DNA of 34,899 nucleotides from a virus. The notes beneath the pieces were generated by a model that saw only the letters and a program-made list of their open reading frames with translations, ran no database searches and was not told the origin of the DNA. Shown piece after piece: positions 18,543 to 31,038 of this stretch. The stretch is taken from IMG/VR virus record IMGVR_UViG_3300023184_000321, positions 1 through 34,899 of that record; one strand, 5' to 3'. Within the stretch, counting starts at the first letter, position 1; each line of letters starts with the position of its first letter. A program made the position numbers and the translations under genes.

Positions 18543-20240
18543 TTATTTACTTATTAAAAACTTACCCAAAACTAAATAATCCATATCACAATTATGAAAT
18601 GTCCAAATAGCTTTTTGTGGGTCATTTGTCATTGTGTGGTCTTTTAAGTTAAATGATGTATTCAATAGAATGGGTGTTCCTGTTAGTTTTTCGAACTCTT
18701 TTAATAAGTCATAGTAAAGTGGATTATCTTCTCTTTTAAGTGTCTGTATCCTTGCCGAATTGTCAACATGGGTTACTGATGGAATGTTTACATCCTTTTT
18801 AACTTTGACAACCTGATTCATATAGGGAACATCTTCTTCTGATAGGAAATACTTTTGATAATCTTCGATTGTAACCGATGGAGCAAATGGTCTAAACATC
18901 TCTCTCTTTTTGACAACTTTATTAATTCTATCTCTAATGTCGGATAAATGTGGATTAGCTAATATAGAACGATTGCCCAATGCCCTTGCACCAAATTCTG
19001 TTCTACCTTGAAACCAGCCTATAATATTACCTTCTTCAATTAATTTTGCAACTTGTTTACATAACATTTCATCGGTATCAAACATTACAACTTTTTTTCT
19101 ATGATTTTGTAATATAATTTTAAGTAATTCAGGACTACTCCACTCCTCACCCAAATACGGAGATTGATTATCACCACCTTTTACTTTTGGATTACCCATT
19201 ACAATATGGTATTGATATAAACATGCACCAATAGCAGAACCACTATCCGATGGGGCAAATGGTATAAATACATTCTTAATTGATGTAGATGTTTTTATTT
19301 TACCATTGGCAGTTCCATTATAAGCACATCCACCACCTAAAACCAAATTCTCACATTCCCATATATTAGTAATTCTATTGATAAGAAAGTATAATGCACT
19401 TTCATACCATCTTTGTAATGAGGCAGCTAAGTCTTTATGATGTTGTTCAATTGGTTCATCTTTGAAACGAGGTGGAAATCCAATTAAATCAATAAGTTGT
19501 TGGTTAAACATATCGTTATCGGATGTTTCCCATGTAAAATAAGACATATCCATTTTAACAATATCAAATTCACCACCCATAGTAGCAATTTTATCAAACA
19601 CACCATTATATTGTTGTTTATCACCATATGGTGCCAATCCCATTACTTTATACTCACCTTCGTTTGGTTTGAACCCTAAATAAGTAGTGAATGCTGAATA
19701 AACCAATCCTAATGAATGTGGAAAGTGCAATGTTTGAATTGTATGAAAGCCGGTCTCATCACACATTGCTGCATATATAGTATGCGATTCACCAACCCCA
19801 TCAATTGACAATCCTATTGCTTTATCAAATGGAGATGTATAGTAAGATAATGCTAAATGTGAATGATGGTGTAATGAATATAAAATTTCTCCATCATATC
19901 CAATTGATTTTAATATTCCTTTTAAGTTGCCCTCCGTTTCATTCCATCTTTTAATAAACTTTCTCCATTTCATTGGATATCTTAAGCCACCCCACTTACC
20001 AATTGTTTCTCTAACTCTTTCAAATTTATCTTTTGGATTTTCATACCAACAAACCATATCAACCTCATCAATTGTTATCTTTACATATTCTAAACACCAT
20101 TGAATTGCCTTAAACGGAAAAGAACTATCATGTTTTTCACCGGATAGTTTTTCTTCTTCAATAGCACATATTACTTTACCATCTATTACTAATGCTGCTG
20201 CTGAATCGTGATAAAAGCCTGATAAACCTAATTGTATCAT
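18543..20240 (-). CDS. Carbamoyltransferase, NodU/TobZ/HypF-like family
   Basis: The 565-aa protein is full length for the NodU family. The N-terminal domain starts GLSGFYHDSAAALVIDGKVI, followed by AIEEEKLSGEKHD, the usual Kae1-like carbamoyl-AMP transfer site. HHHSHLALSYYTSPFDKA and LSIDGVGE carry the metal/ATP-binding histidine cluster. LVLGGGCAYNGTANGK ends the first domain, and GWFQGRTEFGARALGNRSIL opens the C-terminal YrdC-like domain, which makes carbamoyl-adenylate from carbamoyl phosphate and ATP. Such enzymes O-carbamoylate sugars or small molecules. Marine phages carry homologues of uncertain use, possibly DNA-base, capsule or virion-glycan modification. The gene lies two bases after the late sigma gene and immediately before the baseplate genes. 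Confidence 0.95.
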   Translation of the reverse strand: MIQLGLSGFYHDSAAALVIDGKVICAIEEEKLSGEKHDSSFPFKAIQWCLEYVKITIDEVDMVCWYENPKDKFERVRETIGKWGGLRYPMKWRKFIKRWNETEGNLKGILKSIGYDGEILYSLHHHSHLALSYYTSPFDKAIGLSIDGVGESHTIYAAMCDETGFHTIQTLHFPHSLGLVYSAFTTYLGFKPNEGEYKVMGLAPYGDKQQYNGVFDKIATMGGEFDIVKMDMSYFTWETSDNDMFNQQLIDLIGFPPRFKDEPIEQHHKDLAASLQRWYESALYFLINRITNIWECENLVLGGGCAYNGTANGKIKTSTSIKNVFIPFAPSDSGSAIGACLYQYHIVMGNPKVKGGDNQSPYLGEEWSSPELLKIILQNHRKKVVMFDTDEMLCKQVAKLIEEGNIIGWFQGRTEFGARALGNRSILANPHLSDIRDRINKVVKKREMFRPFAPSVTIEDYQKYFLSEEDVPYMNQVVKVKKDVNIPSVTHVDNSARIQTLKREDNPLYYDLLKEFEKLTGTPILLNTSFNLKDHTMTNDPQKAIWTFHNCDMDYLVLGKFLISK

Positions 20241-20242
20241 TT

Positions 20243-20941
20243 CTAAATATTTATATCGCCATTTTTATCAAATTCACTATATAATTCCATTTGCCTCTCT
20301 TTCATTTTATTTACAACTTTAGTAATATAATGTGTTGGATGGCCGGTCATTTCTCTAATAAGTAGATATAGTGATTTTTTATTAAAATTCTCTATGTAAT
20401 TTGCTCTTCTAAATAATTCTAATACCGAATCTGCAATTTGCATATCTCTTTTCTTTGGAAAATAGTTTTCTAAATGTTTATCCCAATATTGAAGCATTCT
20501 AATATTAAATGTTCTAAATTCATCATTACGCTCCTCTTCTCTAAAATTATTTTCAGTATCAAATGAATCAGGTAATCCTGACATTATATCTGTGTCTTTA
20601 TATCTTTTGTAATTTGCGTTGTTATTTAGAATAAGATAATTTCTTGCAACAATTGTAAAATAAGAAAATGCTTTACCTTTACCATTTTTGTACATATGAA
20701 TCTTTTCAATCATAAACGCAACAACCTCTGCCATTACATCTTTTGGGTCATCATCAAAATAAGTAAATTTCCATTTATTGTAAACTATCTCTGCGAGTTT
20801 GTCAAATGCAGATGCAATTCTTTCTCTATATAATTTATCTTTTATATACTGGTCAGTTGTGATATTATATTCTATAATAGCATCTTCGGTATCTTTTGAA
20901 AAATATTGTCTATTTGGCCCTCGTTTTTTTCTAGTTGCCAT
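20243..20941 (-). CDS. Late-transcription sigma factor, T4 gp55-like
   Basis: The 232-aa protein has the sigma70 region-2 pattern. A basic N-terminus (MATRKKRGPNRQYFSKDTED) leads to AFDKLAEIVYNKWKF, then DVMAEVVAFMIEKIHMYKNG and KAFSYFTIVARNYLIL. This corresponds to regions 2.1-2.4, which bind the polymerase clamp and melt the -10 element. Region 4 is not evident, as in T4 gp55 (185 aa), which recognises only a -10 element and uses the sliding clamp as activator. A role in late transcription of the downstream tail genes is likely; TATTTATA octamers in this window are candidate targets. Its ATG lies inside the 3' end of the 88-aa gene (11-nt overlap). Confidence 0.85.
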   Translation of the reverse strand: MATRKKRGPNRQYFSKDTEDAIIEYNITTDQYIKDKLYRERIASAFDKLAEIVYNKWKFTYFDDDPKDVMAEVVAFMIEKIHMYKNGKGKAFSYFTIVARNYLILNNNANYKRYKDTDIMSGLPDSFDTENNFREEERNDEFRTFNIRMLQYWDKHLENYFPKKRDMQIADSVLELFRRANYIENFNKKSLYLLIREMTGHPTHYITKVVNKMKERQMELYSEFDKNGDINI

Positions 20942-21198: not shown

Positions 21199-21834
21199 TT
21201 AAACTATTTCGTATCCTTCTAAAAAGTATTTGTTTGCATTTTTGTATTTAACTTCAACCATCTCACCATCTTTGGATTTCATTACAATTTTATCATTTCT
21301 ACCATAATTAACTTTTTTGACAAAAGTGGTAGTATAAACTCTATCTTTAATTGTAAATCCGTCTAAGTGGTCTATTTCATGCTGAACGATGACGGTCATC
21401 ATTGTTTCCTTTGATATTGACTCATTTTGTTTATCTCCTTCCGGATTAATTTCAAAAGTTAATTCACCTAAGTTATCGGTATCAACTACAACCTTACAAG
21501 CTCTAATGGTTCTTGTTGGTTTTATAAGTGATGATGGAATAGATAAACACCCCTCCATAAAAAGAAATCCTTCTTTAGATTTTTCTTTTATCATTGGATT
21601 AACTAAAAATAATTCTTCTTCTCCAAACTTAATATAACAAGCTCTCTTTTTAATTCCCAATTGAGTGGCCGATATTCCTAATCCTGGATACTCAGTCAAC
21701 CCTTGTTCTAATTGATTTCTTAACTCATCTGCTTCTTGTTGAGTTATTTCCGATTTTAACACAGGAGTTTTAAGATACTCCGTAAACTCTTTTGTTATTA
21801 GTCCGTTAGAACCTTTGTCAACTATTAATTTCAT
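21199..21834 (-). CDS. def: Peptide deformylase
   Basis: The 211-aa protein has all three conserved motifs of peptide deformylase. Motif 1 is GLGISATQLGI (residues 51-61, usual GxGxAAxQ), motif 2 is EGCLS (94-98) and motif 3 is QHEIDHLDG (151-159). Cys96, His152 and His156 are the metal ligands and Glu153 the catalytic residue. The enzyme removes the N-formyl group from new proteins. Phage-encoded copies are known from cyanophages, where they are thought to speed maturation of proteins made during infection. Motif 1 has Ser55 in place of the first Ala. The C-terminus extends past the usual end (EGYEIV). It lies three bases after DUF2061 and two before the membrane protein gene. Confidence 0.95.
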   Translation of the reverse strand: MKLIVDKGSNGLITKEFTEYLKTPVLKSEITQQEADELRNQLEQGLTEYPGLGISATQLGIKKRACYIKFGEEELFLVNPMIKEKSKEGFLFMEGCLSIPSSLIKPTRTIRACKVVVDTDNLGELTFEINPEGDKQNESISKETMMTVIVQHEIDHLDGFTIKDRVYTTTFVKKVNYGRNDKIVMKSKDGEMVEVKYKNANKYFLEGYEIV

Positions 21835-24793: not shown

Positions 24794-24824
24794 AATATAC
24801 GAAAAATAACTGAATTAACCTAAT
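24794..24824 (-). promoter_or_regulatory. Promoter-like element, copy 3 of 5 (weakest; overlaps end of Hsp20 gene)
   Basis: The -10 part TATATT (24794-24799) and its flanks TTTTCG and ACAAA match the copy at 22433 exactly over 17 nt, but the -35 is poor (TAGGTT). It lies just upstream of the terminator hairpin, so a transcript from it would start inside the hairpin. Confidence 0.4.
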
Positions 24825-25201
24825 TTTGGGGTTAATTTTTTTGGTTTGGACTCTTCTTTTCTTTCGATGGTAATTAAAAGAATACCATGTTTAATTTCAG
24901 CTTTTGCTTTTCTACCATCAAAGTTTTTACCTACATTGATTCTTTCTTCGATATCCGAAACCAATTGATTAAAAGGATTTTCTTTATCCTCTCCTATTTT
25001 TTTAGCTTTGATTTCAATTTTGTCCTCAAAGCAATTAATTTCAATATCCTTTGGGTCGTGTCCTAATACTGATAGAGCAAGGGTTGCAGATTCATCTTTA
25101 ATGTCTACTGCGAATTTGTTTTGAACATAAGTCGTTCTTGTCTTTGGTTGTTCGATTGGAAAAAATTCTTCGAATAATTTACTGTAATCAATCATGTACA
25201 T
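24815..25201 (-). CDS. Small heat-shock protein, Hsp20/alpha-crystallin family
   Basis: The 128-aa protein has the alpha-crystallin fold: an N-terminal segment SKLFEEFFPIEQ, then KFAVDIKDESATLALSVLGH, KDIEINCFEDKIEIKAKK, and AEIKHGILLITIERKE as the AxxxGxL strand before a short Pro/Lys-rich tail. Such proteins hold unfolding proteins in large oligomers. T4-like phages of aquatic hosts often carry one, thought to help fold or stabilise virion proteins. Met1 (25201) or Met3 (25195) may be the start. The gene sits alone between a candidate host-type promoter (25238-25270) and a terminator, so it looks like a single-gene transcript. Confidence 0.95.
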   Translation of the reverse strand: MYMIDYSKLFEEFFPIEQPKTRTTYVQNKFAVDIKDESATLALSVLGHDPKDIEINCFEDKIEIKAKKIGEDKENPFNQLVSDIEERINVGKNFDGRKAKAEIKHGILLITIERKEESKPKKLTPKLG

Positions 25202-26027: not shown

Positions 26028-26834
26028 TTATATTAAGGTTCGTTTAATTTCATTCAAATCTTCCGGTAAATAATTTCTAAAATTGGTTTTAATATATTCA
26101 AATAACTTTATAGCATATTCATAGTTGTGTCGTGGGCCGGGGTGTAAGCCATCCGTTCCTCTATCTAAATAATTTTTATATTCACCATCAAATCTATTAA
26201 ATTCATTATAATCCTTTGATATTCCAAAATGGCCGTTCCACAACCAATTGCATTTTTTTGTTTCTAAAAAATACTTTATAAGTAAGTGATTTTTATACCA
26301 ATTAATAAAATTTGCACTATCATTTTGTAAAGAAATTAAATGATTTTGTACCTCACGTCCTTCTTCTGTGTTTTCCAACCAACCCCAACTGGCAGTGGGC
26401 ATGAATGGTTCTACTCCATTATTTTCGGTATATATTTCTCTTCTTTGTGGATTTGTGTACATTATTAATACTAAATCTGGTTTTACTAAGTCATAGTAAG
26501 TTAATAAACATCTGGTAATATAATCATTACTTCTTCCGCCCATTCCAAAATTCAAATTAACTCCGTTAGGTATATATTTTGTAAAATTATAAGACCAGGT
26601 TTCATTGTTATTTACACCCACACCTTCGGTTATAGAGCACCCGATAGCCATTATTTTGAATCCGGGTTTATCAAATGAATCGGCCCTAAATCCCATTTCG
26701 TTATAAGTATATACGGATAACCCCGATTTATCACTTCCAGACGTTTTATATGTTTGGTTTTTTCTTTCGGTTAATTTCCATGCATAGGACGATATTTCAA
26801 ATTCTTCTGGTGTCCAATATTTTAATGCATCCAT
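26028..26834 (-). CDS. SGNH/GDSL-like hydrolase B
   Basis: The 268-aa protein has the SGNH blocks. IMAIGCSITEGVGVNNNETW carries Ser67 as candidate nucleophile, FGMGGRSNDYI supplies the Gly and Asn of the oxyanion hole, and DGLHPGPRHNYEYA near residue 235 carries the DxxH pair. Substrates in the family are acylated sugars or lipids. It is the last gene of the enzymatic island transcript, with one base between it and the sulfotransferase-like gene, so the two may act on the same surface glycan. It is related only distantly to the SGNH protein at 23862. Confidence 0.85.
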   Translation of the reverse strand: MDALKYWTPEEFEISSYAWKLTERKNQTYKTSGSDKSGLSVYTYNEMGFRADSFDKPGFKIMAIGCSITEGVGVNNNETWSYNFTKYIPNGVNLNFGMGGRSNDYITRCLLTYYDLVKPDLVLIMYTNPQRREIYTENNGVEPFMPTASWGWLENTEEGREVQNHLISLQNDSANFINWYKNHLLIKYFLETKKCNWLWNGHFGISKDYNEFNRFDGEYKNYLDRGTDGLHPGPRHNYEYAIKLFEYIKTNFRNYLPEDLNEIKRTLI

Positions 26835-26835
26835 C

Positions 26836-27555
26836 TTAAATTAATTGTTTTGTTTTTTCAAATCTTTTTTCAAAATTGTCCCAAACCCAATTTTTTAATC
26901 TATCGTCTTTTACAATTTTGTTTGAAAGTTTATTATATGAGTTTAATTTTTCTAACTTAAATTCTGTACCATATCGGTTTGTTATAAAATTTTCAAATTT
27001 ATCTAATTCCTTAAAATCAAATTCATATGTACATTTATTGTTTTTTTTCCAAGTGTTTTGAGATAGTAATAATGCTGGGTAATAGTAATGGTCTTTTAGT
27101 GGGTGGTCTTTTATTTCACAAAAATGAAAAGTATATTCATATTTCAGCTTTACCATTTCATCGTCAATATATTTATTTGCATTTCTATTTATGGAATGTA
27201 TTGTATCTATATATTTTTTTGTAAAATTATTGTATAACCAATTATTATCAATATCTTCCCATTTTATAATAGGAATTAATCCGGCATTTGTCATAGATAA
27301 CCACATAAATTCTAATGCAGCATACCACCTATCAAACCAATCTCTATTGACACATATTGTTTCTTTTATTCCAAAAAAATTATATAATTTTTCGACCTCT
27401 AAGTGTACATGTAAACCTTTATCATAATATTTTTCTTTATAATCATAAGGATATTTACAATTCAATGTAGAATTTATAAGTGCACTTTCAATTGAAGTGC
27501 TGGCACACCTTGGAATTGCTAACCATATTAAATCATCATTTATACATAAAGACAT
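26836..27555 (-). CDS. Sulfotransferase-like protein
   Basis: The 239-aa protein begins with a beta strand and loop, LIWLAIPRCASTSIESALIN. This resembles the PAPS-binding P-loop (PKxGSTS) of sulfotransferases, with Arg16-Cys17-Ala18-Ser19-Thr20-Ser21 here. A second element, VNRDWFDRWYAAL near residue 90, resembles the 3'-phosphate-binding RxxxxR/S region. These enzymes transfer sulfate from PAPS to sugars or tyrosines. The length is short but within range for phage and bacterial forms. It lies between a 2OG oxygenase and an SGNH hydrolase in one transcript. The assignment is by P-loop and layout and could also describe a nucleotide-binding relative. Confidence 0.7.
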   Translation of the reverse strand: MSLCINDDLIWLAIPRCASTSIESALINSTLNCKYPYDYKEKYYDKGLHVHLEVEKLYNFFGIKETICVNRDWFDRWYAALEFMWLSMTNAGLIPIIKWEDIDNNWLYNNFTKKYIDTIHSINRNANKYIDDEMVKLKYEYTFHFCEIKDHPLKDHYYYPALLLSQNTWKKNNKCTYEFDFKELDKFENFITNRYGTEFKLEKLNSYNKLSNKIVKDDRLKNWVWDNFEKRFEKTKQLI

Positions 27556-27588
27556 AACTTAAATTTTTTATTAAACTATCATATTATG

Positions 27589-28137
27589 TTATATAATAGT
27601 TTTAATATTTTTACTTTTTACATTTAACCAAGACACCAAAGAATACCTTGTGCCAGTTATAATTGGAGCCACTTTATGTTTGGTGTTGGATGGAAAGATA
27701 AATAAATTTCCGATTCCTTTTTCAAATTCTATTACATTATCATCTAAATCCATATACAATAATTCTCCTCCTGTATATTCGTTGTTTAATTGTATTACAA
27801 CTGAACAAATTCTATGTGATGAGGGTAATGAGTTTGTATCAATATGCCAATCATAGTGACCCCCTTCTTCATATTTTACAAATTGAAATTTTTCTTGTGT
27901 TTGTTCTAAACTATACCCTTTAATTATTTCAGTATTATTTAGATAGTTTATTAATCTATTTGTAACATCTGATAACTCAACTGATTTAACTTTTGCATTT
28001 CGTTTTTCTAAATCAATTACATACCCAACAGGTGAACCCACTTCTCCCAAATTTAATTTTACATTTATATTTTGTTGGATTATTAATTCACATTCTTTTT
28101 TTGAAAGAAAATTATTAATAGTTTTAATGTAACTCAT
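27589..28137 (-). CDS. 2OG-Fe(II) oxygenase (prolyl 4-hydroxylase-like), A copy
   Basis: The 182-aa protein has the full iron/2-oxoglutarate set: HYDWHID (His98, Asp100) and, after a beta-rich span with YTGGELLYMD, FIFPSNTKHKVAPI (His154) and GTRYSLVSWL (Arg164, which holds 2-oxoglutarate). The length and order match the P4Hc/2OG-FeII_Oxy family, which hydroxylates protein, peptide or nucleic-acid substrates. It directly follows the zinc-ribbon gene at 28143 (five bases between), mirroring the second zinc-ribbon/oxygenase pair at 30078-31038. The substrate is unknown; a product of the island itself is one possibility. Confidence 0.9.
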   Translation of the reverse strand: MSYIKTINNFLSKKECELIIQQNINVKLNLGEVGSPVGYVIDLEKRNAKVKSVELSDVTNRLINYLNNTEIIKGYSLEQTQEKFQFVKYEEGGHYDWHIDTNSLPSSHRICSVVIQLNNEYTGGELLYMDLDDNVIEFEKGIGNLFIFPSNTKHKVAPIITGTRYSLVSWLNVKSKNIKTII

Positions 28138-28142
28138 TTATT

Positions 28143-28421
28143 TTATATTATGGATTTATCATTTTTATTATGAAAAAATGGATAATCTACATCTTTCCAC
28201 TTCCCCAATGGACATGCATTAAACATATCCGTAAATACTTTTTTTACAACGGGACAACCACATTCACCACAAACAATACCCAATTTTAACTCTTTAATTA
28301 TTTTTTTTTTAGATGGACATGTTTCACATATATTAGCACGTAGGTTGGCCAGTGATATTTGTCTTTTTGTTGGGTTTTTTGCAATTGCCCATGTTTTTAT
28401 TATTGTAAATAAATCAGCCAT
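28143..28421 (-). CDS. Small zinc-ribbon-like protein A
   Basis: The 92-aa protein has seven Cys. The arrangement is CETCP, about 17 residues, CGECGC, about 15 residues, then CPLGKW. The protein at 30811-31038 shares the whole pattern (CVECP, CKECGC, CPLNKW), so they are paralogues and likely bind one or more zinc ions. The N-terminal helix (MADLFTIIKTWAIAKNPTKR) is basic and could interact with RNA, DNA or a partner. No enzyme activity is suggested. It sits five bases before a 2OG oxygenase, as its paralogue precedes another. I infer an adaptor or substrate-binding partner for the oxygenase. Confidence 0.82.
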   Translation of the reverse strand: MADLFTIIKTWAIAKNPTKRQISLANLRANICETCPSKKKIIKELKLGIVCGECGCPVVKKVFTDMFNACPLGKWKDVDYPFFHNKNDKSII

Positions 28422-28441
28422 ATAACTTTAATTATTTTTTA

Positions 28442-28528
28442 TTAAGAATTAACTACAATAATTAATGAACCAATTTCGGTCATTATTGTATTCATATTAT
28501 TAATATCAGTATTTGTAATTATTTTCAT
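28442..28528 (-). CDS. Possible 28-aa peptide gene
   Basis: This 29-codon ORF (MKIITNTDINNMNTIMTEIG, then eight residues) starts 21 bases after the Hint-protein stop and ends 21 bases before the zinc-ribbon ATG. It fills a 127-nt gap in a densely coded region. Size alone makes it uncertain. It has three internal Met and a hydrophobic C-terminus (SLIIVVNS). Its place right after the large Hint-type gene raises the idea of a peptide substrate, but no sequence feature shows this. Confidence 0.35.
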   Translation of the reverse strand: MKIITNTDINNMNTIMTEIGSLIIVVNS

Positions 28529-28548
28529 TTTTTTATTTTTTATTTGGT

Positions 28549-30036
28549 TTATAGACAATATCTTGGATAACTCCAACAATACCCCGCACCGGTACATACT
28601 GTACCTTTACCAATACAGCTGTTAGTAGTACAAGAACCTGGGCCAGTACAAAATTCATAGTTATGTTCAATTGCAGCAAATGATATTGAATTAGTGGTGT
28701 CGTTTGTTCTTGTTAAGAATATATGTTTATCTGCTACTGTAATTATCCATCCTGAAAAGATTTGAGATGTTGTAATCACTGATGTTACTTCCTTTGTTAT
28801 CGTTGATACTACGGATACATTGGATGAATCTATTAATATAACTAAATCACCAGCGACCATATTACCTATTGATGAAAAAATAACACTATTGTTTCTCTCT
28901 ACTAAATAAAATGAATTTTCGGTATCTTCCCATATAGTATTATCGGTAAATGTGATTGTAGAATAATTTGTTAATTTATTTACTTTCTTTTTATGTGTAA
29001 TAGTATTTGGTGTATATACTACCCCAGTCATAAAATCTGCAATCGGTAGTGTGTACTCACCCAATTCATATAAAATATTACTATTATCTATATTTGGTAT
29101 TGTTATTGATTTAACTAAATCACCCACTTCCAATTCTAATGCCGTTTTCCAACTACCGTCCGCCATTTGTACTTGGTCGGTATCTAATAATTTTGGTTGC
29201 ATTAAGTCCGCCGTTTCGGTTATATATGCATTTCTATACATAATGTCCAATTCAAATGATGTGGTATTATATACAGGTTCCGTTGGAATAAATTGACTAG
29301 TTAAATCGGTATATTGTCCTATTGTAATACTTTGTAAAGTCGGTGGATATAATACATTCAAACTTCTAATTTTTGTTATTTGATTATTATGTTTTTTTGA
29401 ATCATTAAAATAATATTCCATTAAGAAATAATCACTAGTAACATTGTTTGCAATAATAGTATCTAATTCTGTTTGTGAACTAACTTTATATAATTTTGGA
29501 TATAAATTTTTGTTATAATTTGGATATCTACATTTCAAAATAAAATTTGGGTGGATTCCATTATCTGTTATTGTTGTTATGTTATTAACCAACATATTGG
29601 AATCGTCTAAATATGCAAATTGAGAACCAAATGTAGAATCTTTTACTAAATTCATAAAATGGACTTTATCTCTACAATATGTATCATCTACTAATGCCGT
29701 TGTATCGTACGCACTTCTGATAATTAAAGTTGTATCATTATCTTCAATATAAGGTATCGTTATTGAATCGGTTCTAATGTATCTATATTCATATACAATT
29801 GACAACTCAGCGGACATACTGCTAAATACATCTGATAATGCTTTGTTTCCACCAATATAGCATAGATGTAAAAAACCATTGGATGTTATAAATTCTTTCA
29901 AATTTGTGATATCATAAACATCCGAATCATCTTCTATTTTATTGGTACTATATCCAACATTTGTATTTATTTCAATTGGTTTCAAATTACCAATTTTGTC
30001 ATACATAAAATCCGAACCCATTAATACTGTTCTCAT
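28549..30036 (-). CDS. ATP-grasp-like / Hint-like protein with Cys-rich C-terminal tail
   Basis: The 495-aa protein appears to have three parts. Residues 1-280 carry ATP-grasp-like pieces: IEINTNVGYS, LIIRSAYDTTALVDDTYCRD, FILKCRYP and FLMEYYF. Residues ~283-460 look like a Hint domain: LLDTDQVQMADGSWKTALEL then VGDLVK, LVERNNSVIFSSI with GDLVILID, and the block-F-like WIITVADKHIFLTRTN followed by AIEHN. Residues ~461-495 are a tail with six Cys and five Gly (CTGPGSC, CIGKGTVC, GYC, YCL). Canonical intein splice residues are missing: no Cys or Ser at the Hint start, and Tyr instead of Cys/Ser/Thr after HN. It sits between two zinc-ribbon/oxygenase pairs. The reading is by pattern; the Hint part is more secure than the ATP-grasp part. 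Confidence 0.78.
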   Translation of the reverse strand: MRTVLMGSDFMYDKIGNLKPIEINTNVGYSTNKIEDDSDVYDITNLKEFITSNGFLHLCYIGGNKALSDVFSSMSAELSIVYEYRYIRTDSITIPYIEDNDTTLIIRSAYDTTALVDDTYCRDKVHFMNLVKDSTFGSQFAYLDDSNMLVNNITTITDNGIHPNFILKCRYPNYNKNLYPKLYKVSSQTELDTIIANNVTSDYFLMEYYFNDSKKHNNQITKIRSLNVLYPPTLQSITIGQYTDLTSQFIPTEPVYNTTSFELDIMYRNAYITETADLMQPKLLDTDQVQMADGSWKTALELEVGDLVKSITIPNIDNSNILYELGEYTLPIADFMTGVVYTPNTITHKKKVNKLTNYSTITFTDNTIWEDTENSFYLVERNNSVIFSSIGNMVAGDLVILIDSSNVSVVSTITKEVTSVITTSQIFSGWIITVADKHIFLTRTNDTTNSISFAAIEHNYEFCTGPGSCTTNSCIGKGTVCTGAGYCWSYPRYCL

Positions 30037-30053
30037 ACTTTCATATTATTTCT

Positions 30054-30061
30054 TATAAATA
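30054..30061 (-). promoter_or_regulatory. TATTTATA octamer (candidate late signal)
   Basis: Coding-strand TATTTATA lies 17 nt before the ATG at 30036 of the Hint-type gene, inside the 41-nt gap after the 2OG oxygenase. Confidence 0.35.
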
Positions 30062-30077
30062 TTATATTTTTTCTTTA

Positions 30078-30713
30078 TTATAATAAAGATTTTTTATTCT
30101 TAATATTCACAATATCAAATCCGACATTGGAACAAATTGCAATTCTATCTTCATTAGAGTTTGGTATCAAGTTCGGCCGATGCATTACATCTTTACCAAA
30201 AATTACAAATTCACCTTCGTTTGGTAGAATTTCTATTAATTCAGCACCATCCTTAAATCCTAACATTCCTTCATTTTTTTTTAGGTTTTTTGGTATTTGC
30301 AAATAAAAACAATAAGTCCAAGTTGTTGCAATCGGTACAATAGTGTTTTTATGTGGATGTGAAGTATCGTAACTAATTGCAATCGGATGGTTGTGATAAT
30401 CAATTTTATGTGTAATGAGTTCTTTTGTATTTGGTGTTGTCTTAAATACCCAAGTCTTGCCGGCCCATGCACCATTCCAATTAATTCCCTCAACTAATCC
30501 AGATATTTGTTTACAAGCTTCAATTCCATATTTGATTACTGATTCTATTTCTTTAGATTGTATACCAAATATACTTGTGTTTGTGTCGGTATAACCAATT
30601 GATAAAATATTTTGTTCAACTCTGTTTATTAATGATTCTTTTGAATATTCCCAATTATAGTCAGTACGATATATGTCTATATTTTTACTAAGTTGTTGTT
30701 TTACTATATTCAT
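30078..30713 (-). CDS. 2OG-Fe(II) oxygenase-like protein, B copy
   Basis: The protein is 211 aa when started at the ATG at 30713. A longer reading frame runs to 30761, but that start lies in the -35 box of the promoter at 30733-30763, so the transcript would not include it. The second half reads like the 2OG-FeII_Oxy_5 type: TSHPHKNTIVPIATTWTYCF, then FYLQIP, GEFVIFGKDVMHRPN and EDRIAICSNVGF, giving candidate iron ligands at HPH and MH and a 2-oxoglutarate-binding Arg. The N-terminal half is poorly conserved. It is likely a hydroxylase of unknown substrate, paired with the zinc-ribbon gene at 30811. Confidence 0.72.
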   Translation of the reverse strand: MNIVKQQLSKNIDIYRTDYNWEYSKESLINRVEQNILSIGYTDTNTSIFGIQSKEIESVIKYGIEACKQISGLVEGINWNGAWAGKTWVFKTTPNTKELITHKIDYHNHPIAISYDTSHPHKNTIVPIATTWTYCFYLQIPKNLKKNEGMLGFKDGAELIEILPNEGEFVIFGKDVMHRPNLIPNSNEDRIAICSNVGFDIVNIKNKKSLL

Positions 30714-30732
30714 ATATAAACTATTAAAACCA

Positions 30733-30763
30733 AATATACGATAAATATCCCACATTACCAAAT
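30733..30763 (-). promoter_or_regulatory. Promoter-like element, copy 5 of 5 (upstream of oxygenase B)
   Basis: TTGGTA (30756-30761), 17 bp, TATATT (30733-30738) on the minus strand. It probably drives the 2OG-B/Hint/zinc-ribbon/2OG-A/sulfotransferase/SGNH transcript. It sets the oxygenase start at 30713, with a leader of about 13 nt. Confidence 0.72.
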
Positions 30764-30810
30764 AAAATATCGGCGGGGGTTGGGGGCAAAGTCGTTTTTT
30801 AAGAAAATTT

Positions 30811-31038
30811 TTAGAATATACCTTCTATTGATAGTTTCCACTTATTCAAAGGACATCCCATTTCATTACCACTATATATCTTATGTTCTATATAGCATCC
30901 ACATTCTTTACACTCCGGTCTTTTTAATTTTACGAAAGATGGACACTCCACACATACTCTATATCTTAATTCAGCAGTGATTTGTTGTTCTTGTGTGGGT
31001 TGTGACCTTACTATCCATTTATTTGGGATTTTAGTCAT
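30811..31038 (-). CDS. Small zinc-ribbon-like protein B
   Basis: The 75-aa protein shares its Cys pattern with the protein at 28143-28421: CVECP, CKECGC and CPLNKW, with the Lys-Trp ending also kept. Six or seven Cys in this spacing suggest one or two zinc sites. The N-terminus is basic and short (MTKIPNKWIVRSQPTQEQQI). It lies before oxygenase B with a promoter between them, so it is a separate transcript from the pair's partner, unlike copy A. Its last residues overlap nothing; the gap to the promoter contains a C-rich run on the minus strand (30771-30787). Confidence 0.8.
   Translation of the reverse strand: MTKIPNKWIVRSQPTQEQQITAELRYRVCVECPSFVKLKRPECKECGCYIEHKIYSGNEMGCPLNKWKLSIEGIF

Follow-up and report, generated by a model that had tools for sequence, protein, structure and literature searches.

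Gene content of the locus

The window analyzed here is a 34,899-nucleotide stretch of viral DNA, of which positions 26028 to 31038 hold a gene cluster lying entirely on the minus strand, in the order and at the coordinates given by an initial annotation. At its center is a 495-residue protein, termed HINT (28549..30036), for which that annotation had proposed an ATP-grasp domain, a Hint domain, and a tail with six cysteines. This architecture was borne out: the ATP-grasp domain spans approximately residues 1 to 278 (29203..30036), the Hint domain spans residues 282 to 459 (28660..29193), and the Cys-rich tail comprises residues 460 to 495. The tail (YEFCTGPGSCTTNSCIGKGTVCTGAGYCWSYPRYCL; 28552..28659) begins immediately after the sequence EHN, contains 36 residues, 6 of them Cys, is hypervariable among relatives, and was unstructured in both predicted models, with a pLDDT below 50 in that of the window protein. 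As a single sequence, the central protein had no match in Pfam, PHROG, or PDB sequences.

The identity of the ATP-grasp domain is supported by three lines of evidence. Foldseek matched this part of the protein to yeast glutathione synthase (1m0t; E = 4.7e-5) with an overlay that was only partial; residues 9 to 42 gave weak profile matches to ATP-grasp carboxylases; and D9, E22, N24, R107, K168, and R224 were invariant in 115 to 116 of 116 relatives by residue count, metal and ATP roles being assigned by motif to all of these but R107. The global overlay on 1m0t was poor (TM, 0.25; rmsd, 11.8), Pfam was silent, and ligase activity is inferred. The N-terminal motif DFM...G...IEINTN suggests a circular permutation of the domain. 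Eukaryotic-type glutathione synthetase, itself a circularly permuted ATP-grasp enzyme, resembles the central protein by the Foldseek match and an IExNT-type motif but shares only about 14% sequence identity, and the central protein is fused to a Hint domain.

The Hint fold was recovered in an AlphaFold model (pLDDT, 83.5) whose top Foldseek match (E = 6.7e-8) was the BIL2 domain of the Tetrahymena BUBL (ubiquitin-like) locus, and residues 285 to 434 matched an intein profile (E = 0.0043). Like inteins and BIL domains, it ends in His-Asn (His458-Asn459), with His conserved in 115/116 relatives and Asn in all 116. Unlike them, it has no Cys, Ser, or Ala at position 1 and needs no +1 nucleophile, and it belongs to a carrier protein with a Cys-rich tail behind it rather than being an insertion. 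The Cys1 position is occupied by Lys282 in the window protein and, in the alignment of the 116 relatives, by His, Lys, Ser (17 cases), Ile, and other residues, never by Cys. The block B His is likewise absent, being Ser in the window protein and mostly Ser, Ala, or Cys in relatives; one group, which carries an S74 domain, retains a His near this position. The +1 residue is Tyr in the window protein and variable elsewhere, without the Cys, Ser, or Thr of splicing inteins. This pattern of conservation is that of a domain capable of C-terminal cleavage only, and cleavage itself is inferred; since the block F residue, His438 in the window protein, is Asp in 75 of the 116 relatives, cleavage competence remains uncertain. 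The sole member that has lost the terminal His (L083) also has no tail, and a search for further tail-less relatives of it, in which the two losses might co-occur, found none.

Upstream of the central gene lie a zinc ribbon protein of 75 residues (zinc ribbon A; 30811..31038), which was recognized by its motif and ends in SIEGIF, and an oxygenase-like protein of 225 residues (30078..30755), ending in KNKKSLL. Zinc ribbon A resembles a short type of paralogue without the C-terminal tag described below. Downstream, the possible 28-residue peptide of the initial annotation (MKIITNTDINNMNTIMTEIGSLIIVVNS; 28442..28528) proved to be a real open reading frame, because one of 25 to 50 codons occurs directly after the central gene in nearly all relatives and in all groups. 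It is followed by a second zinc ribbon protein (zinc ribbon B; 28143..28421; 92 residues), ending in NKNDKSII. Both ribbons contain the predicted CxxC...CxxCGC...CPLxKW motif. This core is common to the DUF6171/PHROG 13558 zinc ribbons, for which the Pfam score fell below the cutoff (19.9 versus 27 bits), but the form belonging to the cassette adds a C-terminal extension that ends in the tag. The remaining products are a 2-oxoglutarate (2OG)-Fe(II) oxygenase of 182 residues ending in SKNIKTII (27589..28137), a sulfotransferase-like protein of 239 residues ending in EKTKQLI (26836..27555), and an SGNH hydrolase-like protein of 268 residues ending in NEIKRTLI (26028..26834).

The enzyme assignments of the initial annotation held to differing degrees. 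The oxygenase at 27589..28137 matched PF13640 well above the cutoff (E = 7.7e-16; 59.3 versus 27 bits), whereas the one at 30078..30755 gave only subthreshold Pfam matches and a PHROG 274 match at E = 0.0012, with homologues at other loci that are likewise tagged. Only motifs underlie the SGNH and sulfotransferase assignments: PF13472 scored 15.4 against a cutoff of 32.9 bits for the former, and the latter had an N-terminal P-loop-like motif and no sulfotransferase match in Pfam. The sulfotransferase-like family was found in 62 of the first 81 loci. A relative from another sulfotransferase-like family had a weak match to Pfam Sulphotransf.

Distribution and gene neighborhood

At least 186 copies of the central gene were found in IMG/VR, 116 of them remaining at 90% nonredundancy; no relatives were found among 50,697 named phages or 84,980 prokaryote genomes. 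The cassette is widespread in uncultured bacterial viruses and undescribed so far, no paper on a combined ATP-grasp and Hint protein or on such a phage module having been found in a search that left out most subscription journals. Among the 65 nonredundant loci flanked by 4 kb or more on each side, a zinc ribbon was nearby in 62 and a 2OG oxygenase in 55. The initial annotation had viewed the cluster as a peptide- or protein-modifying module and held that homologues commonly lacking ribbon or oxygenase neighbors would refute this; the opposite was found, in support of the idea. Linkage persisted across several genomic settings and among groups as divergent as about 26% identity, while gene order varied and the set of putative tailoring enzymes extended to 2OG, radical SAM, sulfotransferase-like, SGNH, SET, and GT-like families. 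The duplicated pairing of ribbon and oxygenase around the central gene, to which significance had also been attached, is incidental, as other loci have one ribbon with a changing, multifamily enzyme set.

Ribbons of this family also occur outside the cassette: untagged paralogues lie at loci that lack the central gene, adjoining tail sheath/tube or fiber genes. The zinc ribbon as a general marker was ruled out on these grounds. The tagged form was restricted to the cassette with one exception, at a contig end (L096).

A shared C-terminal tag

The neighboring enzymes and the zinc ribbon end in a common tag of approximately KxxK[TS]LI, which is absent from ordinary genes nearby and had gone unnoticed in the initial annotation. 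Five of the six flanking proteins in the window carry it (KKSLL, DKSII, IKTII, TKQLI, and KRTLI), zinc ribbon A having no clear tag, and at least one tagged gene was present in 64 of the 65 well-covered loci. Tagged members made up 109/117 of the SULF, 208/239 of the OXY, and 71/85 of the SUL2 families, as well as 63 of 74 distinct ends of the OXA family (that of the 30078..30755 protein), compared with none in the HD, HSP20, NMNAT, CarbT, and SCAF families. The tag was also not present in ten annotated oxygenase homologues from cyanophages, pelagiphages, and other phages. Its frequency was 80% at the first position after the central gene, 71 to 78% at the second and third, and a few percent upstream.

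We considered the possibility that the cluster is an ordinary accessory island in which surface-glycan or metabolic enzymes lie together and have nothing to do with the Hint/Cys protein. Glycan pathways do also include sulfotransferase, SGNH, and GT-like genes, and gene order is variable, but the almost universal linkage and the shared tag, which declines steeply away from the central gene, make this very improbable. Still less tenable is an origin of the tag as a DNA-level signal, such as an A-rich translation start or a promoter or terminator belonging to the gene that follows. The codons of the tag are rich in A (Lys AAA, 0.96 versus 0.81), but Ser, Thr, and Leu synonyms were used near background levels and the tag rate stayed at 70 to 82% however far away the next gene lay, including distances above 100 nucleotides, against 0 to 4% in control genes; distance independence and near-background synonym use effectively refute it.

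ATP-grasp ligases join carboxylates to amines, and the tag could accordingly be a ligation signal whose C-terminal carboxylate is activated by the ATP-grasp domain, joining the tagged enzymes to an amine. Such conjugation would use established chemistry of these ligases; tags occur strictly at the C terminus, no constant partner other than the central protein is untagged and has conserved ligase-type residues, and the best fold match of the Hint domain comes from a ubiquitin-like locus. Nevertheless, direct evidence of ligation is lacking, and the tag also resembles PDZ-type ligands of class I ([ST]-x-[LI]-COOH), which would mean simple docking; we regard conjugation as improbable. Locus-specific tag variants were considered as a clue to the dock and gave no signal: tag similarity within a locus was no higher than that between loci, so that co-evolution does not name the dock.

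Properties of the Cys-rich tail

The number of cysteines was even (4, 6, 8, 10, or 12) in all 113 nonredundant tails, and in 75 of 75 tails of a smaller set. The tails are therefore probably disulfide-bonded mini-proteins, the disulfides being inferred from this parity. Tails diverge much faster than the remaining protein, tail identity being about 0.47 where ATP-grasp identity is 0.84. Without a dedicated search, no reverse transcriptase was noticed that would point to a diversity-generating retroelement behind this variability. In 19 cases an S74 domain (PF13884) lies beyond the tail, which then sits between the His-Asn and the S74 domain, and a canonical Hint domain lies beyond it in 4 proteins of the smaller set and 7 at 90% nonredundancy (Pfam Intein_splicing, down to 2e-12). 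Correlations between enzymes and tails were few among the 63 sister-pair tests run. The presence of the OXY18 oxygenase family tracked Cys-Pro motifs in the tails (sister pairs, 11:0); correlations of sulfotransferase with Tyr and of SET with Lys were seen in the raw comparison only and were gone in sister pairs.

These data also bear on the possibility of a virion adhesin, a tail or fiber protein that remains attached and has the Cys-rich tail as its modified, receptor-binding tip, with the ATP-grasp and Hint folds as scaffold and the variability reflecting host range. S74/ICA domains function in trimeric phage fibers (PMC8326128, PMC4690869), and the one group with a C-terminal S74 chaperone would fit that role, as would the zinc ribbon paralogues beside tail or fiber genes, the cassettes that adjoin very long fiber-like genes, and the siphophage fibers (L003/L004) that terminate in a Hint domain with oxygenase genes following them. 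An adhesin remains a serious candidate, yet on balance an unlikely one: invariant catalytic-type ATP-grasp residues are unexpected in a scaffold, and 87 of the 113 tails have no S74 or other fiber module. In contrast to Peptidase_S74/endosialidase-type proteins, the N-terminal part is no known fiber.

A putative peptide-maturation module

The reading that we prefer, with a probability of roughly 55%, is that the cassette is a phage peptide-maturation module with the tail as its self-released substrate. Architecture, linkage, Cys parity, tail variability, the tag, and residue conservation are established at the level of sequence; cleavage, disulfides, docking, modification, and the final role are inferred from them. 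The central protein seems to make and release its own fast-evolving, disulfide-bonded mini-protein and would be both precursor and carrier, its ATP-grasp and Hint domains preceding the disulfide-forming part. Because only the requirements for cleavage at the C-terminal Asn remain in this Hint domain, which has no N-terminal nucleophile, it would free the N terminus of the tail; where an S74 chaperone or canonical Hint domain follows, its self-cleavage would free the C terminus. Phage-specific tailoring enzymes would probably be recruited through the common tag to a single dock used by all, for which the central protein is the likeliest candidate, and may modify the tail by hydroxylation, sulfation, methylation, or radical SAM chemistry, with the zinc ribbon and the small, helical peptide as constant helpers. 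That the tail is their substrate is an inference, supported only indirectly, by the even Cys counts, the hypervariability, the flanking self-cleaving domains, and the correlation of an oxygenase family with Cys-Pro. Evidence against such a module is the absence of biochemistry, the failure to find an exporter for it, and the paucity of enzyme-tail correlations among many tests. The frequent Asp in block F, the lack of a co-evolution signal in the tags, and the unstructured tail in both models also count against it. Whether the product stays on the virion or is free is not resolved and both remain possible, display being favored since S74 domains belong to trimeric virion fibers.

If the maturation reading is correct, lake and sea phages possess a modular line for tailoring proteins that has a docking tag of its own and whose products are hypervariable disulfide mini-proteins. 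It would be a source of new peptide chemistry and of a portable docking tag, and it would account for many of the genes for 2OG oxygenases, radical SAM enzymes, and sulfotransferases that uncultured phages carry; its parts are small enough for testing in E. coli. Somewhat short of even odds, we would place the stronger proposal that the cassette represents a new class of peptide biosynthesis in viruses, with a self-cleaving ATP-grasp/Hint carrier that presents a disulfide mini-protein to interchangeable modifying enzymes and recruits these, or even joins them covalently, via a universal tag.

The module resembles RiPP clusters, including those of the ATP-grasp graspetides, in its conserved leader-like part, hypervariable Cys-rich core, and linked radical SAM, 2OG, and methyl- or sulfotransferase-type enzymes. 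It differs in that the "leader" is itself an ATP-grasp and Hint protein and the enzymes share a tag, and in having no exporter, no known precursor family, and neither modification nor a released product demonstrated; no leader-binding RRE domain was noticed in the enzymes. Conotoxin-like precursors provide an analogy only: the central protein is phage encoded, no signal peptide was seen, and no sequence kinship is claimed, but in both a conserved precursor carries a hypervariable mini-protein whose cysteines are paired.

The central protein family

Every gene that the initial annotation had described between 26028 and 31038, around a protein with ATP-grasp, Hint, and Cys-rich tail regions, was present, on the minus strand throughout. 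The 34.9-kb virus record also carries a T4-like baseplate and tail gene set, and its nearest named phages, judged by the baseplate wedge gene, were Microcystis phage Mel-JY01 and Flavobacterium phage immuto (38-41% identity). Near the tail genes are a carbamoyltransferase-like protein (18543-20240), a possible gp55-like late sigma factor (20243-20941), a peptide deformylase (21199-21834), and an Hsp20-like protein (24815-25201), names that rest on sequence impression and neighbor clusters only.

Queried singly, the central 495-aa protein (28549-30036, minus strand) had no match in Pfam, PHROGs, or PDB sequences, and a single-protein pattern scan of IMG/VR yielded one full-length relative (L002; 51% identity). 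An alignment-based scan of IMG/VR found 82 relatives and a divergent-alignment scan 196, with 80 loci returned in each case; at least 186 copies were examined in total, 116 of them at 90% nonredundancy. No relative was detected by a pattern-based search of GTDB species genomes or, with three different family members as the query, among 50,697 named phages. Five groups were distinguishable. G1, to which the window protein belongs, has members of about 500 aa that end with the tail; in G2 (634-667 aa), an S74 chaperone follows the tail; G3 proteins are about 680 aa long; in G4, the tail precedes a further Hint domain, of canonical type; and G5 proteins (about 495 aa) have a tail marked by a CWCPWNYCG-type pattern. 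One 211-kb virus record, G002, held two complete cassettes (L009 and L042) with different tails and a separate zinc ribbon for each.

AlphaFold models of the window protein (pLDDT, 83.5; 51-row alignment) and a G5 member (pLDDT, 85.1) were confident except in the tail. Foldseek matched the Hint domain to Tetrahymena BIL2, inteins, and hedgehog, with yeast glutathione synthase as a further match (E, 4.7e-5; poor global overlay). A profile search matched residues 285-434 of the window protein to an intein (E, 0.0043) and, weakly, residues 9-42 to ATP-grasp carboxylases. D9, E22, N24, R107, K168, and R224 were invariant in 115-116 of 116 relatives. The ATP-grasp domain is read as circularly permuted because the motif DFM...G...IEINTN, of a type that normally closes such a domain, appears at the N terminus; eukaryotic glutathione synthetase is likewise a permuted ATP-grasp.

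Cassette genes and their shared C terminus

A zinc-ribbon gene occurred in all of the first 81 loci and was rarely more than three genes away from the central gene. Of 65 nonredundant loci flanked by 4 kb or more on each side, 62 had a zinc ribbon, 55 a 2OG oxygenase, and 64 at least one tagged protein; the three loci without a ribbon form one clade. Immediately after the central gene lies a small open reading frame (25-30 aa in G1, 37-50 aa in other groups), usually ending in ...LIVxANS or ...IKxKHLS.

The tag, about KxxK[TS]LI, reflects similar C termini across unrelated cassette protein families. Among 287 distinct tagged ends, Lys was found at -7 in 46% and at -4 in 63%, Thr/Ser at -3 in 62%, Leu/Ile at -2 in 94%, and Ile/Leu at -1 in 90%, with the search pattern itself constraining the last two positions in part. 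The background was 1.6% for internal 6-mers, 3.5% for other proteins' ends, and 3.6% for shuffled ends. The tag was carried by sulfotransferase-like proteins (SULF, 109/117; SUL2, 71/85), 2OG oxygenases (OXY, 208/239; OXA, 63/74; OXY18, 15/16), zinc ribbons (100/147), SGNH (82/123), c22 (33/39), radical SAM (35/55), and SET (12/19) proteins, and by none of 131 central proteins. Since the pattern was derived from the same data in which the tag was counted, most weight falls on the control families, on the distance profile, and on two long genomes. Tags were absent from the HD (0/33), HSP20 (0/30), NMNAT (0/45), CarbT (0/24), and SCAF (0/31) controls and present in 1 of 30 GNAT proteins; the rate was 80% at gene position +1 and dropped to a few percent at +12, with similarly low values upstream. 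About half of the 16 matches among 354 genes of G001 (280 of 289 kb examined) lay no more than 5 kb from the central gene, and 9 of 21 in G002 (200 of 211 kb examined) fell in a single 10-kb bin at a central gene. No tag was seen on ten annotated oxygenase homologues from cyanophages, pelagiphages, and a Stenotrophomonas phage, or on two unannotated ones. Selection on the tag acts at the protein level, because its rate was independent of the distance to the next gene and its Ser, Thr, and Leu codon usage was near background. The family, its fold combination, and the tag are undescribed in the databases and literature searched, with incomplete coverage of the literature; the individual folds are known.

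Hint residues and the Cys-rich tail

In inteins, the N-terminal step is driven by Cys1 (or Ser1) together with the block B His and the C-terminal step by the terminal Asn and the His before it, and His is the commonest residue at position F:13 (PMC4031507). Among 116 relatives of the central protein, the Cys1 equivalent was His, Lys, Ser, or another residue and never Cys, and the block B His was substituted in the window protein. The penultimate His was kept in 115 and the terminal Asn in all 116. The residue following this Asn varied freely, and splicing is therefore not expected. These residues match what would be expected of a domain capable of C-terminal cleavage only, but 75 of 116 relatives have Asp in block F, and cleavage is unproven. 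One relative lacking the Cys tail (L083, 1454-2848) is alone in the family in having Tyr at this His position (YN for HN), a single case of joint loss that is only suggestive. In another, L098 (7130-8956), HN is kept without a mini-protein, and the degenerate Hint runs directly into a Vint-type Hint domain.

The tails after HN are 23-109 aa long; in G1, Cys makes up 18% of their residues, Pro 11%, Gly and Ser 10% each, and Tyr 7%. The Cys count (4, 6, 8, 10, or 12) was even in 75 of 75 distinct and 113 of 113 nonredundant tails. Related tails are not independent of each other; counts shifted repeatedly between groups, always in multiples of two. Pairing of the Cys residues in disulfides would explain this most simply, with metal binding by Cys as an alternative. 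Tails evolve faster than the protein body (mean identity within the closest class, 0.47 versus 0.84 for the ATP-grasp part and 0.79 for Hint). The G2 tail stops at an S74 domain whose Ser-Asp...Lys start is kept; such S74/ICA domains, once trimerized, self-cleave via a Ser-Lys dyad (PMC8326128). The tail boundary in G4 is a Hint having Cys1 and HN (PF14890). From these boundaries it follows that in every group HN stands to the left of the tail and a stop or self-cleaving module to the right. In the central proteins of seven loci (L085, L100, L102, L121, L177, L178, and L203), two Hint domains flank a 23-32-aa six-Cys peptide, the same HN-peptide-Cys1 order as in engineered peptide cyclization, although Pro or Val occupies the +1 position.

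Proposed roles: a modified mini-protein or a virion tip

The likeliest reading, with cleavage unproven, is that the central protein would act as the carrier of a mini-protein tail, which tag-bearing enzymes would modify and the Hint domain would release. That the central protein is the dock for tagged enzymes is a guess made from its constancy. The idea that the tail is the enzyme substrate draws support from sister pairs, in which OXY18 presence went with Cys-Pro motifs in the tail 11:0 and OXA presence with Trp 27:6; of 63 such comparisons, most were null. The strongest rival is that the tail forms a virion tip, because of the S74 domain and because zinc-ribbon paralogues are linked to tail genes: at loci without a central gene, untagged ribbons adjoin tail sheath/tube or fibre genes. 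A modified, released mini-protein and a virion tip can both be partly true.

In L124, L142, and other loci, short untagged zinc ribbons (75-77 aa) have tail sheath/tube-like genes as neighbors, and short untagged ribbons follow a long fibre gene in L139, L151, and L152. Siphophage fibre-like proteins in L003 (7340-12183) and L004 (8870-11075) end in a canonical Hint (GGGGCFVYGT...HN) and are directly followed by three and one untagged 2OG oxygenase genes, respectively, possibly a separate Hint-oxygenase association.
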